Below, one piece after another: positions 11,049-62,785 of a stretch of 64,000 nt of DNA. Position numbers and translations under genes: made by a program. The stretch covers positions 1,312,085 through 1,376,084 of the forward strand of contig NZ_FPAS01000001.1 in assembly GCF_900116425.1 (NCBI RefSeq), read 5' to 3'. The stretch comes from Lishizhenia tianjinensis (GTDB lineage Bacteria > Bacteroidota > Bacteroidia > Flavobacteriales_D > Crocinitomicaceae). The stretch's first letter is position 1. Each line of letters opens with the position of its first letter. The notes beneath the pieces were generated by a model. The model ran no database searches. It was given only the letters and a program-made list of their open reading frames with translations, and was not told where the DNA came from.

Positions 11049-11080
11049 TATGGTGATCAACCTAAAATCTTATCACCATG
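11049..11080 (+). promoter_or_regulatory. Hairpin sequestering the start codon of the transposase-like gene
   Basis: ATGGTGAT at 11050-11057 is perfectly complementary to ATCACCAT at 11072-11079, with an extra U-G pair at 11049/11080 and a 14-nt loop. The right arm contains the ATG start codon (11078-11080). In RNA this would hide the start codon, which is a classic way to keep transposase-type genes poorly translated. The structure is seen; regulation is inferred. Confidence 0.55.
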
Positions 11081-11905
11081 AACCACCAAAAGTTCTACAC
11101 CACCTACTCCTCCGAAGATTCCTGTCTTCAAATTTTTAAACACCACTACGAAAAAAAACTCACCCATTGCTCGAAATGTGGAAATAACAAATTAACATGG
11201 TCTAACTCCTTTCATGGATGGAGATGTTCAAAATGTTCAAAGAAATACTCTCTAAAATCTATTTCCTTTATGAAGGATAGTAATAAAAGTTTTAAAGACT
11301 GGTGGGAAATCATTCATTTGATTTGTCACTCTAAAAAGTCTTATTCCATAAATGAAATTTATAGAATATCTCAGCAAACACGCTATGAAACCGTGTATCA
11401 TATGGTATTAAAGATCAGACAAGAAATGGGGAAGATAAATCAAATTGAAAGTAGCCAATATTACACGCCAATTAGGTTTGACAAGCGTAAACAAAGCAGA
11501 CAAAATTATACGAGAATGACTCCCTACCATTTGATTGTAACCTATAAAAAGACAAAGGGTAGAAAACAAGATAAAATTCGACTAACGCTCTCTAAATCCG
11601 GAAGAAAGAAACTTATCTTGGCCTTAAAAAAATGTTCCTCAAACTATCCATTCCCCAAACTTCTTCATGCAAATAACACCCTTAAAACTACAGAATTAAA
11701 ATGCTTAGAGAAATGTCCCATCCTTCCCAAATGGGAAAATAAATTAAGGAATAATATTATCAAACTTATAAAGGGAACCTATCATCAATTACAGACTTTA
11801 CATTTACAGGGAGTTTTGGACGAATATTCCTTTAAATACAATTACAGATATGCGCTTAACACTAAGGGGGAATTATTTATCTCAAAAGCGCTGATTTATT
11901 TATGA
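11078..11905 (+). CDS. IS1595-like transposase relative, catalytic triad not visible
   Basis: 275 aa. The N-terminal zinc ribbon has two Cys pairs (CSKCGNNK and CSKCSKK). The central helical part (KSYSINEIYRISQQTRYETVYHMVLKIRQEMG) and the C-terminal GTYHQLQTLHLQGVLDEYSFKYN stretch match the general plan of IS1595/ISXO2 transposases. However, the usual DE-Y-GG segment is replaced by a basic run (IRFDKRKQSRQN) and no clear second catalytic Asp follows. I see no flanking terminal inverted repeats. It may be a decayed or domesticated transposase; the intact frame favours retention. Its 3' end overlaps the convergent peroxidase gene by 10 bp. Confidence 0.6.
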   Translation: MNHQKFYTTYSSEDSCLQIFKHHYEKKLTHCSKCGNNKLTWSNSFHGWRCSKCSKKYSLKSISFMKDSNKSFKDWWEIIHLICHSKKSYSINEIYRISQQTRYETVYHMVLKIRQEMGKINQIESSQYYTPIRFDKRKQSRQNYTRMTPYHLIVTYKKTKGRKQDKIRLTLSKSGRKKLILALKKCSSNYPFPKLLHANNTLKTTELKCLEKCPILPKWENKLRNNIIKLIKGTYHQLQTLHLQGVLDEYSFKYNYRYALNTKGELFISKALIYL

Positions 11906-58063: not shown

Positions 58064-59959
58064 ATGTCAGCTTTATATTTTTACCTCTTCTTCATCGTCT
58101 ACCCTATCTTGGCTATGTGGCCAAAAATCTTTAAAAAGGCAGGTAGACAAACTTGGGAGGCATTTGTACCGGGTTACAATTATGCCATTGCCAACAAAAT
58201 TTCTGGTCAACCCTGGTGGTGGGCACTTTTCTTAATCATTCCGGGGATACATATTTTTATGTGGATGGTTATCAATGTCTCCTTGATTAGAAAATTCGGA
58301 AAAGTATCGGTTGTAGATACACTTCTTGGAATCTTTTTCCCTTTCGTTCCTATGTACCAGATTGCAGGAGACGAAAATGCAAAAGCAAATTACACTACAG
58401 ATTGGGAGAACGCCAAACAAGTGGCTGAACGTACAGCTGGAGATCACATAGTTCTGTTTTTATCACTTCCAATTTTAGGTCATATTTTAGCCTATACCTT
58501 GGGAGCTGCTCAAAGCAAGAAAAAATCTAAAAAATCAAAAATCAAAGAATGGGGAGACACCGTGCTATTTGCACTAATTGCTGCCTCAGGTATTAGAACC
58601 TACGTTTTTGAACCTTTCCAAATCCCTACGGGATCTATGGAAAAAACTTTATTGGTGGGTGACTTCTTATTCGTTAACAAACTAGCGTACGGACCAAAAG
58701 TACCTGTTACACCGGTAAGTTTCCCATTGGTACATAACTTCATTCCTTATTTAAATATCAAGTCTTACGTGGGAGTTGAAAAACTCGAATATACAAGACT
58801 ACCAGGTTTTACAGATGTTAACAGATATGATGTAGTAGTATTCAACTACCCTTCTGGAGATACTGCAGTTTATGACCCGCGTATGCCTTTTGGTTTAATG
58901 GGACATGATTATCACGGATTAATCATTGGAGAAGCGCAACACCAATTCCAATTGGCCAATCAAAATAACTTCAACAAGGTAAATGAACTGAAGAATAAAT
59001 TAAGAGAACGTATTTATACAGATTCTACGATAACAAATCCAGATTCTCTTTACGATGCGAAGCTCGAAGAAATCAAATCGAAAGATTTCTATGTTGACTG
59101 GAGCACTTTCTTAGATGAATTAGAAAAATGGAAGGCTAAAGCACGTTACGAGTTTGCTGTAAACAAAAGAACCTACAATCAAGGTAGCTACGTTGACCAT
59201 ATGGGAGTGATTCCTCGTCCAGTTGACAAAAGAGAAAACTACATTAAAAGATGTGTAGGAATACCTGGTGATAGCCTGGAAGTGATCGATGCTCAATTGT
59301 ATGTTAATGGTACTCCTGCACCTATATTTGAACATCAAAATTTACGTTATGAAGCGGATCGCAATCAATTGGCTTCTTTGGTTGGTTTAATGAACAGAAT
59401 GGGTCTTGAAGAAAATAGAGATTATAGAGTTTCTTACGACGACCAAACAAAGGCTTTCCTTTTCTTAACCGCTGAAGAGCACAAAGAATTGAGTCAGCAC
59501 ATTACTCTAACACCGAAATTAGATGAAGATGTAGCTTACTACAAAAATTTCGATGACGTTGAAATGAAGATCAACAATTTAAGCTATTACCCAAAACATC
59601 CTGATGTTCACAACACGTCTACAAATTTCCAAAAGTTCTACATTCCTAGAAAAGGAGATAAAATTCAGCTTACACGTAAGAATGTGATTTGGTACAAACG
59701 AGTAATTACAGCGTATGAAGGTCATACCTTTGAAGAAAAGGACGGTCAATACTACATTGACGGTGAATTAGCGAACGATTACACTTTTGAGATGAATTAC
59801 TATTGGATGATGGGAGATAACAGATACAATTCTGCAGACTCAAGAGTTTGGGGATTTGTACCAGAAGACCACATCGTAGGTAAAGCTTCTTTAGTATGGT
59901 TGTCTAAAAATCCAAATGGAGGATTTAGAACAGAAAGATTTTTCACTTGGATTAAATAA
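58064..59959 (+). CDS. lepB: Signal peptidase I, long Bacteroidota form
   Basis: 631 aa, about twice the E. coli enzyme. The first roughly 130 residues are an extra membrane domain (DUF5684-like helices, VPGYNYAIANKISGQPWWW). A transmembrane helix precedes the catalytic region: Ser191 in FQIPTGSMEKTL and Lys395 in YIKRCVGIPGDSLEV. They are about 200 residues apart, compared with 55 in E. coli, because of a helical insert (about 265-375). The conserved MMGDNRYNSADSRVWGFVPEDHIVGKA box is near the C-terminus. It removes Sec signal peptides. Confidence 0.93.
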   Translation: MSALYFYLFFIVYPILAMWPKIFKKAGRQTWEAFVPGYNYAIANKISGQPWWWALFLIIPGIHIFMWMVINVSLIRKFGKVSVVDTLLGIFFPFVPMYQIAGDENAKANYTTDWENAKQVAERTAGDHIVLFLSLPILGHILAYTLGAAQSKKKSKKSKIKEWGDTVLFALIAASGIRTYVFEPFQIPTGSMEKTLLVGDFLFVNKLAYGPKVPVTPVSFPLVHNFIPYLNIKSYVGVEKLEYTRLPGFTDVNRYDVVVFNYPSGDTAVYDPRMPFGLMGHDYHGLIIGEAQHQFQLANQNNFNKVNELKNKLRERIYTDSTITNPDSLYDAKLEEIKSKDFYVDWSTFLDELEKWKAKARYEFAVNKRTYNQGSYVDHMGVIPRPVDKRENYIKRCVGIPGDSLEVIDAQLYVNGTPAPIFEHQNLRYEADRNQLASLVGLMNRMGLEENRDYRVSYDDQTKAFLFLTAEEHKELSQHITLTPKLDEDVAYYKNFDDVEMKINNLSYYPKHPDVHNTSTNFQKFYIPRKGDKIQLTRKNVIWYKRVITAYEGHTFEEKDGQYYIDGELANDYTFEMNYYWMMGDNRYNSADSRVWGFVPEDHIVGKASLVWLSKNPNGGFRTERFFTWIK

Positions 59960-60552
59960 TGTACAGTACCACAGTTTATTTCGGAAACATTGCCTACTGG
60001 AAAGAACAAGCCCAGGTGGGTAAAATCTGTCTCGACTACAAGGACGTCTACAAAAAGCAGAGTTTTAGGAATAGACAAGAAATACTAAGTGCTAACGGTA
60101 AACAGGCACTGAGTATACCGGTTATTCGTCCAAATGGCTCTAACACTCTGAGTAAAGATGTTCGCATTAGTGATGCTGAAAACTGGCAAAAAGACCATTG
60201 GAAAGCCATAGAAAGTGCCTATAAACACGCGCCGTATTTTTGGTACTACGGAGATCAGGTAAAGGATTTAATTTTTCAAGAAGAAAAAAGTTTAGTGGAG
60301 TTCAATAAGAATATTCAACAAGCAATCATTGAGTTTCTTTCTTTAGAATTAGAAATTACGCTTGAAAATGATGCTCCAAACATTGAGAACATGGAAGATC
60401 CTCGGGTCTTTTTAAACGATAAAAAGAATAAAATTAATACCCCACCCTATATTCAGGTATTTTCAGACAAGTTAACTTTTGAGCCCAATCTATCTGTGTT
60501 AGACGCACTTATGAACCTTGGGCCAATGTCACGCATGTTAATTATTTCTTAA
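59959..60552 (+). CDS. WbqC family protein
   Basis: 197 aa. Matches WbqC: FGNIAYWKEQAQ near the start, NGKQALSIPVIRPNG, and WQKDHWKAIESAYKHAPYFWYYGDQV. The ATG overlaps the lepB stop by 1 bp (TAATG), closing the parA-lepB gene block. Members are found in O-antigen clusters and beside lepB in Flavobacteriia; the activity is not established. Confidence 0.88.
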   Translation: MYSTTVYFGNIAYWKEQAQVGKICLDYKDVYKKQSFRNRQEILSANGKQALSIPVIRPNGSNTLSKDVRISDAENWQKDHWKAIESAYKHAPYFWYYGDQVKDLIFQEEKSLVEFNKNIQQAIIEFLSLELEITLENDAPNIENMEDPRVFLNDKKNKINTPPYIQVFSDKLTFEPNLSVLDALMNLGPMSRMLIIS

Positions 60553-60565
60553 AATTGATTTTACA

Positions 60566-60597
60566 TTTGGTCAAATCATAAAAAAGACTTATTTTAG
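60566..60597 (+). promoter_or_regulatory. Promoter of small-RNA copy 1
   Basis: TTTG (60566-60569), 20-nt spacer, then TATTTTAG (60590-60597), one base off TAnnTTTG. It ends 4 nt before the conserved segment, as in the other copies. Confidence 0.55.
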
Positions 60598-60601
60598 TAC
60601 T

Positions 60602-60674
60602 GATTTAGGTGGTTAGGTTAGGTTGATTAGTAAATGAGAAGTGGACGCCCGTCTGCTTCTCATTTGCATTTTTA
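60602..60674 (+). ncRNA. Candidate small RNA, copy 1 of 4
   Basis: The first of four tandem units. A 29-nt 5' segment (60602-60630), predicted unpaired, carries GGTTAGGTTAGGTTGATTAG and is identical in all copies. It is followed by a hairpin from 60630 to 60667: GTAAATGAGAAG pairs with CTTCTCATTTGC, then U-G and G-U pairs, GAC/GTC and a GCCC loop. ATTTTTA follows. No open reading frame of note. I cannot name the family. Identity as RNA rests on the promoter position, the conserved stem and the T-rich tail. Confidence 0.65.
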
Positions 60675-60761
60675 GACCTTTCGTTTTTTCCGTCGAATTA
60701 GCAATCCAAGATTTACTAGAAATAAAATAGAACTAACTCGTCTAAGATTAGATATTTAAAT

Positions 60762-60769
60762 TATCTTTG
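60762..60769 (+). promoter_or_regulatory. -7 box of small-RNA copy 2
   Basis: TATCTTTG, perfect TAnnTTTG, ending 4 nt before the unit. No good TTTG is present at -33 (TCGT there), so this promoter may be weaker. Confidence 0.5.
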
Positions 60770-60773
60770 TAAC

Positions 60774-60846
60774 GATTTAGGTGGTTAGGTTAGGTTGATT
60801 AGAAAATGAGAAGTGGACGCCCGTCTGCTTCTCATTTTCATTTTTA
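60774..60846 (+). ncRNA. Candidate small RNA, copy 2 of 4
   Basis: Same layout as the other copies: the invariant 29-nt 5' segment (60774-60802), then a hairpin (60802-60839) in which GAAAATGAGAAG and CTTCTCATTTTC are perfectly complementary, with U-G, G-U and GAC/GTC continuing to a GCCC loop. ATTTTTA follows. It differs from copy 1 at two positions in the lower stem; one of them turns a U-G pair into A-T. Confidence 0.65.
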
Positions 60847-61014
60847 GGACCTTTCATTTTCTCCTCTCCCCTCTTTAACTAGAAAATTTTGTACAAGCAC
60901 ACGTGATGAAAAAAGCTTCACCCTGTGGCTAATAAATATTATGCACGCTTAAAAAGCATTCATCGACAAAAACTTGTTATTTACATACAGAAAATAGATA
61001 CTCATATAATTTAC

Positions 61015-61045
61015 TTTGTCAAGTTTAAATACTAATGTATCTTTG
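61015..61045 (+). promoter_or_regulatory. Promoter of small-RNA copy 3
   Basis: TTTG (61015-61018), a 19-nt spacer and TATCTTTG (61038-61045), a full match to the Bacteroidota promoter consensus. It ends 4 nt before the unit. Confidence 0.7.
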
Positions 61046-61049
61046 AACT

Positions 61050-61122
61050 GATTTAGGTGGTTAGGTTAGGTTGATTAGAAAAGGAGAAATGGACGCCCGT
61101 CTGTTTCTCCTTTTCATTTTTA
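61050..61122 (+). ncRNA. Candidate small RNA, copy 3 of 4
   Basis: Invariant 29-nt 5' segment (61050-61078) and a hairpin (61078-61115) whose arms GAAAAGGAGAAA and TTTCTCCTTTTC are perfectly complementary despite differing from copies 1-2 at two positions on each side. The apex (GGACGCCCGTC) is unchanged. A T5 run follows (61117-61121). Best-supported promoter of the four. Confidence 0.7.
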
Positions 61123-61295
61123 AGTACTTTCCTTTCGTAAGAAACCACTTTCATGTTATCCTACTATTTCCCGCATATCAAGTAAAGTTTGTCTAAATAA
61201 AATATTTACCACAACTATATTATGCGTACCCAATAATCATTCATCGATAAAAAATGTCCTTTACCCGATGAAAATATGAATCTCGTATAATTTTC

Positions 61296-61327
61296 CTTGT
61301 ACAAGCTTAAAATCTGACGTATCTTTG
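61296..61327 (+). promoter_or_regulatory. Promoter of small-RNA copy 4
   Basis: CTTG (61296-61299), a 20-nt spacer and TATCTTTG (61320-61327), ending 4 nt before the unit. Confidence 0.65.
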
Positions 61328-61331
61328 AACT

Positions 61332-61403
61332 GATTTAGGTGGTTAGGTTAGGTTGATTAGAAAAGGAGAAATGGACGCCCGTCTGTTTCTCCTTTTCATT
61401 TTA
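61332..61403 (+). ncRNA. Candidate small RNA, copy 4 of 4
   Basis: Identical to copy 3 across the 5' segment (61332-61360) and hairpin (61360-61397); the T tract is one base shorter. The unit ends within about 10 bp of the stop codon of the convergent gene at 61412, so its hairpin could also help end that transcript. Confidence 0.65.
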
Positions 61404-61411
61404 AGTCCTTT

Positions 61412-62785
61412 CTAATTCATCACTTGATCTCCATTCAATACTTTGGCCGCTTCAAAATCAAAAATAAGATCCTCTTCATAAAGAAATTTCTTTTGTGTAG
61501 ATTCAAAAGGTCTATACACGTAATAAATTTTATTATCTCTTATTTCTAATTTGTCTACATATCTAAAATGCAATTTCTGACTACGTAAAGCCTCACCTGT
61601 ATTCGGATCTATCCATTTAATGTAGGTATATCCCATTTTTTCATAAACACTATAAATTTGTCCGGTAACATGGTCTTGTAAGAGTAACTTCTCCCAACCT
61701 GTTCTGCGTTCATCTAAATGATAATAGATATTCATACTATCGAGCTTCTCCCCATCATCATTTAATACAAACATATATTCTTTGTAATGGTCAAAAACAA
61801 ACAAACTATCGTTACGCATAAACATGGGAGCATATATCTCTTCGTAATAAATACTTTGTGTAAAATAATTGGCTCCTACCCAGATACGCTTATCAATACC
61901 TGTTTTCGATTCCATTTCCATGGCCCATAATTTAGTTCTTACGTCTACCCATAAATATTCAGAAGTATAAAGATCCATCATCAATTCATCCTCTATGTTT
62001 AGGAGGTGCTTATACGTCGTATCTATCTTGTCTACATACATATAATCCATGGCCGGGAAATCGGGGTTATAATTAGAGAAATACATTTTGGTTTGCAGTG
62101 TATCCACTATGGGCGAGATGTATTTAAAATAGTATGACTTATCAATGGCTCCCAATTTCAAAGCATCATATTCATCCACATAAACAGTATACATGATTTT
62201 TGCACATTGTATATGCACATTACCACGGAAATCTCTGATGAGTTTTTCCGCTTTATTGGGCACCCTAAGCGTACTTAAAATTTCTCCGTTTTCATAAAGC
62301 ATAATCTGACTCCCTTTTTTCAATTTCTTTTCATAGGCCAAAAGAATAATTCTGTTCTTCCCTATTAATTCAAAATCAGCAACGCTCAATTCTTTTGAAC
62401 CAAAAACGGTATCGGGGAGTTTATTCGAAAAAATGGTTACCCCCTCCTGAGAAAGTCCGTCGAACTCACAATCTATGCGCAATAAAAGGGTATCATCGTG
62501 GACCATTTTGAGTGATTTATCAAAACTGGTAAACAATGTATCTTTAAAAATGTAATGCTCTATGCTTAAAGAAATCAAATCCTCTTTTGACTGTATATTA
62601 AAGTAAGCAAATCCCTCGGCGTTAGAACTCGTTTGGATTTTTTCATTTTTCAAACTCAATAGCAGGTTTGCATTTTTCACTTTGCTGTCTGTATCCGTAT
62701 CGTACAACTCAACTTTTAAGGTGATGTTTTGTGCGTAACTCGCGAAAGTCAACAAAAACAAAAAGAAGGGAATAGCGTTTCTCAT
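61412..62785 (-). CDS. Unknown secreted protein (457 aa)
   Basis: 457 aa. Signal peptide (MRNAIPFFLFLLTFASYAQ), an N-terminal Ig-like or carboxypeptidase-regulatory-like beta domain (ITLKVELYDTDTDSKVKNANLLLSL, about 20-110), then about 340 residues of beta-rich sequence with many Tyr/Trp that may form propeller-like repeats. No T9SS tail or lipobox, so periplasmic or released. No family recognised. It is convergent with the small-RNA array and divergent from recQ. Confidence 0.6.
   Translation of the reverse strand: MRNAIPFFLFLLTFASYAQNITLKVELYDTDTDSKVKNANLLLSLKNEKIQTSSNAEGFAYFNIQSKEDLISLSIEHYIFKDTLFTSFDKSLKMVHDDTLLLRIDCEFDGLSQEGVTIFSNKLPDTVFGSKELSVADFELIGKNRIILLAYEKKLKKGSQIMLYENGEILSTLRVPNKAEKLIRDFRGNVHIQCAKIMYTVYVDEYDALKLGAIDKSYYFKYISPIVDTLQTKMYFSNYNPDFPAMDYMYVDKIDTTYKHLLNIEDELMMDLYTSEYLWVDVRTKLWAMEMESKTGIDKRIWVGANYFTQSIYYEEIYAPMFMRNDSLFVFDHYKEYMFVLNDDGEKLDSMNIYYHLDERRTGWEKLLLQDHVTGQIYSVYEKMGYTYIKWIDPNTGEALRSQKLHFRYVDKLEIRDNKIYYVYRPFESTQKKFLYEEDLIFDFEAAKVLNGDQVMN

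Follow-up and report, generated by a model that had tools for sequence, protein, structure and literature searches.

Putative small RNAs of the Crocinitomicaceae with candidate antisense decoys and predicted transposon-derived targets in Lishizhenia tianjinensis

What are the repeated units that fill a protein-free gap in the genome of Lishizhenia tianjinensis, and on what might they act? The gap lies in a stretch of 64,000 nt, the whole of which was analysed and is here termed the window, between a gene assigned by Pfam to the WbqC family (59959-60552, + strand) and a convergent gene (61412-62785, - strand) that has no match in Pfam. Repeat units of about 73 nt start at 60602, 60774, 61050 and 61332, where a first-pass annotation made from the sequence letters had placed them, and a 25-nt piece of their 5' segment, searched with up to three mismatches, matched the window exactly four times and was absent from 100 shuffles. 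Copy 1 (60602-60674, + strand) comprises a 29-nt 5' segment (60602-60630), a hairpin (60630-60667) and a T-rich tail, while copies 2 (60774-60846), 3 (61050-61122) and 4 (61332-61404), all on the + strand, were delimited by sequence, fold and covariance match. Each copy is preceded on the + strand by a -7 box, read in the sequence and backed by the fixed-offset promoter statistics given below: TATTTTAG for copy 1 (60590-60597) and TATCTTTG for copies 2 (60762-60769), 3 (61038-61045) and 4 (61320-61327). The spacing from box to segment is 4 nt in every window copy. The segment, GATTTAGGTGGTTAGGTTAGGTTGATTAG, has the same letters in all four, contains a period-5 repeat (GGUUAGGUUAGGUU) with GGUUA repeated, and its final G is already paired in the stem. 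Each hairpin has 17 pairs and a GCCC tetraloop, with z-scores of -4.5 to -5.1 and none of 200 shuffles as stable. The proposed layout of -7 box, invariant segment, hairpin and tail thus stands in general, with two departures: the box of copy 1 deviates from the consensus and the T-run of copy 4 is shorter than in the other window copies.

The array has no match in Rfam 15 at gathering score, in keeping with the earlier view that the family was an unrecognised one, and the family is apparently unnamed. The top sub-threshold match was Plastid-psbA-2 (29.5 bits against a cut-off of 55.8), and those to small RNAs were sraA (24.4 bits, cut-off 56) and GibS (19.6 bits, cut-off 115). A reading of the array as a 5' leader or riboswitch was dropped because the next gene is convergent.

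We examined the spread of the units with one exact scan of GTDB genomes using a 17-mer of the segment, which returned 89 stretches. Among the 80 matches listed, most fell in Fluviicola, Brumimicrobium, Lishizhenia and other Crocinitomicaceae and Flavobacteriales, and two (L070 and L082) were unrelated sequence. GATTTAG precedes the 17-mer in 85 of 91 distinct copies. The promoter motif TAnnTTTG, with at least five of its six letters, stands at one fixed offset in 83 of the 91 distinct copies against 2.2% at other offsets, in a count that omitted L035, L070, L082, copies 70 nt or less from an end and copies with identical upstream sequence. These promoter letters recur between copies though most flanks differ. 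Some records titled as unrelated organisms, namely CP034120.1 (L057, L058 and L067; titled Glaciecola amylolytica) and MAGs titled Kuenenia, Chryseobacterium gleum and Actinomyces viscosus, hold typical sRNA copies, and for this reason their titles are probably wrong.

The stem was assessed in 47 sequences of what we term type A, consisting of the four window copies, L005 and 42 of 44 non-redundant copies, the two L035 entries being left out as antisense. Two-sided changes occur in 14 of the 15 stem pairs, the innermost pair being invariant, and 92.6% of cells are paired compared with 42-55% when the partner is slid by one to three columns. The loop is mostly GCCC, GCCT, GCTC or TCCC. The window's own genome also carries a fifth sRNA copy at C8:481659 and a weak sixth at C2:1466196. 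The fifth copy belongs to a second subfamily, type B, with the consensus GUAGUAGUAGGUUAGGUUGAUUAG followed by a hairpin, for which 22 loci were aligned; two-sided changes are found in 13 of 14 pairs of this stem and 99.3% of cells are paired (25-49% when slid). The consensus sequences of both types share a core, UAGGUUAGGUUGAUUAG, whose 3' end is altered in some members of each, and this core is the part to which the sponge and target sites described below are complementary.

Within the window's family, a covariance model matched 122 of the 150 genomes, spread over 22 of 24 genera (E <= 0.01); since some of its training sequences were taken from these very genomes, the figures are to be read as a census rather than an independent test. 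Genomes with any match have 1-15, and that of the window has nine at this threshold, three of which are sponge strands. A search of the order identified 13 genomes of other families among 77 with matches (E <= 1e-3; best 1.4e-5), and a search of the phylum gave weak matches in 29 genomes besides the window's own (E <= 1e-3; best 1.2e-8). Nine phylum matches that were inspected appear by eye to be terminators preceded by a GGTTAGGTTG-like tract and have at most four of six -7 box letters at the sRNA offset; L148 and L156 have five of six, but at 28 nt. As far as searched, the RNA family seems specific to the Crocinitomicaceae. Homologues with a conserved stem, for which the first-pass annotation had looked to the Bacteroidota, are present within one family of that phylum and show strong covariation.

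Several variants and outliers were seen alongside these copies. Five contigs filed as viral contain the 17-mer, and in two of them (the IMG/VR contigs L211:9323 and L213:5936) a type A sRNA is intact, promoter and hairpin included; by eye, the neighbouring genes are phage-like in L213 and bacterial-looking in L211. In two genomes (L013:5452-5523, - strand; L028 near 6228, + strand) a variant has GTGAATA for GATTTAG and an apex of CATC-GCCC/GCCA-GATG, and the usual -7 box is absent from its usual place. The stretches L149, L151, L153 and L155 from other Bacteroidota have a GGTTAGGTTG-like tract followed by a terminator, which could reflect chance or distant kinship with the sRNA; when relatives were tested for tracts of this kind upstream of terminators, the outcome was negative.

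These patterns bear on whether the units are transcribed at all. Multicopy, intergenic hairpins could be repeats that are not transcribed, for example spare terminators or DNA elements resembling REPs or MITEs, and the terminator-like appearance, by eye, of the weak matches that follow GGTTAGGTTG-like tracts in other Bacteroidota fits with this idea. Such elements would not, however, be expected to keep the -7 box at a constant offset in 83 of 91 copies, to share promoter letters when most flanks differ or to show compensatory stem changes in both subfamilies, and we find this explanation scarcely credible. We infer instead that the units are transcribed as small RNAs.

An indication of what these putative RNAs may pair with came from contig C8 of the same genome, where the covariance search weakly matches the opposite strand at five places and a sixth copy has diverged. 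The six units, of 91-97 nt, form two clusters (at 38 kb and 73-76 kb of C8), and each has the order of a -33 TTG, a -7 box TATCTTTG (TAACTTTG in one copy), a sequence beginning CAAGCTAATCAACCTAACCTAGCCC, a second site CTATCTAACCTAACC and a terminator. Conservation is higher in the promoter, the sites and the terminator than in the flanks, and the flanks too are in part repeated. Site 1 is predicted to pair with the 29-nt segment at -39.3 kcal/mol in five copies and -31.6 kcal/mol in the sixth, through 26-27 pairs, and no energy as low was obtained in 200 shuffles for any copy; the three C-to-T changes in site 1 of the sixth copy keep the pairing as G-U. Site 2 gives -20.8 to -25.3 kcal/mol with 14-23 pairs, values reached by 0-4 of 200 shuffles. 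When the whole sRNA served as partner, the energies of the three copies tested were -42.1, -42.1 and -34.4 and the corresponding shuffle minima -40.4, -42.7 and -42.9, a weaker result that may reflect pairing of the shuffled sponge with the sRNA stem as well. Judged by their sequence, all six copies could be made as independent RNAs bearing sites complementary to the sRNA seed, making the C8 units a candidate multicopy RNA sponge. A toxin-antitoxin reading of the units was rejected, with ATG, GTG and TTG frames being one codon long or absent in all six.

A differently built unit occurs in a Fluviicola MAG (L035, genome G087); it measures 219 nt from after the -7 box to the terminator and has two sites at -40.2 and -39.2, with shuffle minima of -28.2 and -26.7. 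Three pattern searches, each of 150 genomes, found sponges in the window's own genome and G087 only and can miss others because exact letters were required; the remaining matches were AACCT tandem runs, unrelated sequence or antisense strands of sRNAs. Long AACCT runs occur in L193 (G059) and L191 (G005), and that of L193 lies directly before an ORF that by eye resembles a sulfatase gene. Separately, the -33 region of the sponge promoters (L157:4067 and 4616; L158:5140, 5544, 5919 and 7794) coincides in part with an element, CTTGCGAGAATCCACAGTTGACAAG, which is exact in three of six, has one or two changes in the rest and is a possible regulator site.

Candidate mRNA targets were sought by scanning 512 kb of the window's genome, covering the start regions of 427 genes. 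Three of the six best-scoring genes were similar ORFs with (A)TCAACCTAA shortly upstream of the ATG, and a fourth ORF of this kind had been found before the scan. They belong to an IS1595-derived family of 17 paralogues in this genome, none with internal stops, and one member lies within the window (11078-11905, + strand), encoding a degenerate zinc-ribbon protein of 275 aa with the complementary site, ATCAACCTAA, in its leader (11056-11065, + strand). Three members scanned against NCBIfam NF033547 scored 42.6, 44.2 and 67.2 bits, all below the cut-off of 75, and the Pfam zinc ribbon and ISXO2 domains were likewise found only below cut-off. The motifs D-E-x-Y-F and D-K-S, which we take to be the catalytic acidic residues of the IS1595 transposase, are present in three of seven aligned relatives (G109, G117 and G059), missing or altered in the other four and not conserved among the 17 paralogues, suggesting that the paralogues have probably lost transposase activity. 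The predicted structure of the window member has a mean pLDDT of 84.7 and its best PDB matches are retroviral integrases, which we do not take as proof of an integrase fold since the E-values are 0.04 or worse and the TM-scores about 0.2. Inverted repeats of 22-40 nt, identified without a shuffle control, flank six of the 17 (L281, L282, L285, L286, L287 and L291), and these six may for that reason be non-autonomous mobile elements.

A ATCAACCTAA-like site is present in all 17 leaders, with ten of ten letters in eight, nine in five and eight in four, and starts 11-23 nt before the ATG. Among 281 sampled ORFs, 12 reach at least eight letters and two at least nine, both of these being family members, so that none of the other 279 reaches nine and ten reach eight; this comparison leans towards the family because the family itself was the source of the 10-letter consensus. 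A control with shuffled seeds does not lean in this way, and here the core duplex averages -15.67 kcal/mol over the 17 leaders, which as paralogues are related by descent, versus -8.82 (sd 1.11) for 60 shuffled seeds, the lowest of which is -11.47. Predicted pairing extends beyond the motif to 13-16 pairs in L281, L282 and L287. The distances from the site to a promoter-like TAACTT and to the ATG vary, and the letters of the site are conserved. The 9-mer TCAACCTAA occurs 12 times in the sampled 512 kb when antisense strands of sRNAs are left out, five times in sponges, three times in family leaders (those of the three members sampled) and four times elsewhere; none of these last four stands before an ATG and one stands before a TTG frame. 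Complementary sites beyond chance expectation, as required of a trans-acting sRNA, are thus found in mRNA leaders and candidate sponges. The first-pass annotation had read trans base pairing from the layout of the units, and this gains in plausibility from the antisense units and the 17 complementary leaders of the same genome; the sponges, the targets and the second subfamily go beyond what it had proposed.

The target family has a narrow distribution, with protein matches of at most 164 bits in the others of 150 genomes against 191-446 bits within the window's genome. A partial core site occurs in one (L320) of 28 IS1595-like ORFs from other genomes, a set that leaves out L324 and in which the start of L319 could not be placed, and 19 of these ORFs lie in genomes with two or more sRNA matches. 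The core site thus belongs to the family of this lineage and not to IS1595 at large. In contrast to the widespread sRNA family, the 17-gene family and the C8-type sponge were found in no genome but this one.

A second genome, G006, provides a possible parallel that was recognised post hoc. It has seven sRNA matches, including a type B copy (L253) that begins GUAGUAGUAGG, and we examined six of its eleven protein matches to the target family (five together with L301), which are also related by descent. The core site is absent from these six relatives, but in five of them CTACTA or TTACTAC lies no more than 25 nt upstream of the ATG, and in the sixth (L348) CTACTA runs into the ATG; the CTACTA site is complementary to GUAGUAG at the 5' end of the type B sRNA. 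Motifs of this type were found in 1/281, 5/276 and 4/424 control ORFs. The G006 leaders are predicted to pair with a 24-nt type B segment at a mean of -15.72 versus -10.84 (sd 1.61) for shuffled seeds, none of 100 being as low. With the 11-nt type B end alone the value is reached by 12 of 40 shuffles, and shuffling may barely change so repetitive a string; with the type A segment it is reached by nine of 100. CTACT is absent from the same place in all 17 leaders of the window's genome, and ORFs from G010, G059 and G106 (L352-L354) have neither the core site nor the CTACTA site. As the motif was first noticed by eye, we treat the G006 case as a lead for which other genomes are needed.

The leaders could also be interpreted at the level of DNA, with ATCAACCTAA in the 17 leaders and the C8 units serving as an operator or leader element to which the proteins derived from transposases bind in autoregulation, and the match to the sRNA being coincidental or borrowed. 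A zinc ribbon is retained in these genes, whose relatives include DNA-binding transposases, and a promoter-like TAACTT lies upstream of the motif, all of which would suit an operator. The distance between motif and promoter is not fixed, however, and all 17 leaders and all six C8 units are oriented such that their RNA complements the sRNA. Moreover, pairing exceeds the motif (13-16 pairs in the three leaders named above and 26-27 in the C8 units), the G006 relatives carry another site that again matches an sRNA of G006, and target-type proteins above 164 bits occur in the window's genome only, against 122 of 150 genomes for the sRNA family. We therefore regard an operator as unlikely and favour pairing between the sRNAs and the leaders.

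Evidence for targets beyond this family was not obtained. Compared with dinucleotide-shuffled seeds, there was no overall excess of start-site pairing in 510 genes from relatives and the window genome's own stretches, none in 299 genes of one relative and none beyond the IS1595-derived family in the 427 genes of the window's genome. The single relative, G069, was sampled over 400 kb and yielded no target; it has 12 sRNA matches and shares its genus group (g10) with the Fluviicola genome that contains L035. Enrichment of the 9-mer AACCTAACC was not seen in the window's genome (41 occurrences versus 63 for its reversal); nine occurrences are in sRNAs, 12 in sponge units and 20 elsewhere, of which 16 were inspected. 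Two lie 2-3 nt before an ATG, one belonging to a gene for a GxxExxY protein (L262:17167-17547, - strand) and the other to a 219-aa gene with no family match above cut-off (L263:9952-10611, + strand); these genes are possible further targets and constitute a weak lead.

The absence of a family-wide target signal in the sets of 510 and 299 genes would be explained if the RNAs mainly bind a protein, for example an RRM protein or a titratable regulator, through the repeated GGUUA, with mRNA pairing being secondary. High copy number and the strong invariance of the 29-nt segment with its period-5 repeat could be explained in the same manner. Protein binding would not, however, have predicted antisense decoys in two genera and two architectures or the 17 complementary leaders, and we consider it improbable as the main function. 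The RNAs, if they pair with mRNAs, would do so with another chaperone than Hfq or with none, as Hfq was not found in any of 30 genomes, including that of the window, by a search that was positive in 5 of 14 control genomes. Bacteroides has been described as having no obvious Hfq, in a paper that mentions sponges once and in general terms (PMC7366714).

Taken together, these results probably reflect an Hfq-less sRNA family resembling FopS, which prevents translation of genes derived from transposons and is itself titrated by decoys mimicking its targets. Each sRNA of about 73 nt would be made from its own sigma-ABfr-type promoter and ended by its own terminator hairpin, and its unstructured, C-free 5' segment would be the antisense seed. 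The core UAGGUUAGGUUGAUUAG is predicted to pair with the ATCAACCTAA-like sites just before the start codons of the 17 paralogous genes, such that the sRNAs would cover the short leaders of these mRNAs and stop initiation, with translation most likely being blocked. The six C8 decoy RNAs, which mimic the target leaders with a longer copy of the site, would compete for the sRNAs and titrate them. While family, covariation, promoters, terminators and complementarity are read directly from the genomes, we infer pairing in the cell, repression as its direction and the sponge action. A further-reaching interpretation, which we hold tentatively and find somewhat easier to doubt than to accept, is an RNA-interference-like circuit in which family-wide Hfq-less sRNAs silence 17 transposon relics through one leader site, a six-copy decoy sets the threshold and relatives in another genus are controlled through another segment of another sRNA member; the relics may be new regulators or mobile-element parasites under RNA control.

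In a limited literature search, sRNA regulation in the Bacteroidota was described for Bacteroides and Flavobacterium; no paper combining Crocinitomicaceae with sRNA was found and, among the titles listed, none was about sRNAs of Fluviicola or a Bacteroidota sponge. Our analysis would add a multicopy sRNA family with the FopS layout in 22 of 24 genera, which the covariance model can annotate, and a putative three-part circuit in one genome (six sRNAs, six decoys and 17 target leaders) that gives clear predictions.

The closest resemblance is to the paralogous FopS sRNAs of Bacteroides thetaiotaomicron, which are described as pairing near start codons and blocking translation and are reported also from a phage (PMC11697453). 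FopS is described as multicopy, with 14 copies, as are the Lishizhenia sRNAs, and the FopS/GibS layout of a single-stranded 5' segment, a terminator hairpin, a length of 65-75 nt, a sigma-ABfr promoter and multiple copies appears to be reproduced here. FopS/GibS RNAs are characterised by a conserved 41-nt motif with the R1 seed, and GibS scored only 19.6 bits against its gathering score of 115 in the array; they target the translation initiation regions of susC-like genes, whereas the predicted targets here are transposon-derived. The array matched no FopS model among 4227 Rfam models, of which FopS is perhaps not one. FopS is bound by the RRM-1 protein RbpB, and a multicopy antisense decoy is, unlike in FopS, a putative part of the Lishizhenia system. 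We therefore call these RNAs FopS-like in layout rather than FopS. Among other flavobacteria, Flavobacterium psychrophilum has a conserved sRNA, Rfp18, set apart by its description as one sRNA with predicted pairing via a third stem-loop (PMC9723704). The Lishizhenia RNAs, in contrast, comprise one stem-loop and a 5' seed that is single-stranded.

In enterobacteria, sRNAs are bound and titrated by sponge RNAs, for instance the PinT antagonist of Salmonella. The candidate C8 decoy differs from these in being multicopy, with its own promoter and two sites, in facing a multicopy sRNA family and in belonging to a host without detected Hfq. Antisense RNAs that block translation of transposase mRNA near its start are represented by IS10 RNA-OUT and IS200 art200, both of which are cis-encoded by the element itself, as are, to our knowledge, all antisense cases directed against transposons. 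The predicted outcome here is alike, but the sRNA loci and the 17 diverged genes lie at different places rather than on opposite strands of one locus. If this reading is correct, the Lishizhenia sRNAs would be trans-acting regulators of an entire family of genes derived from transposons.
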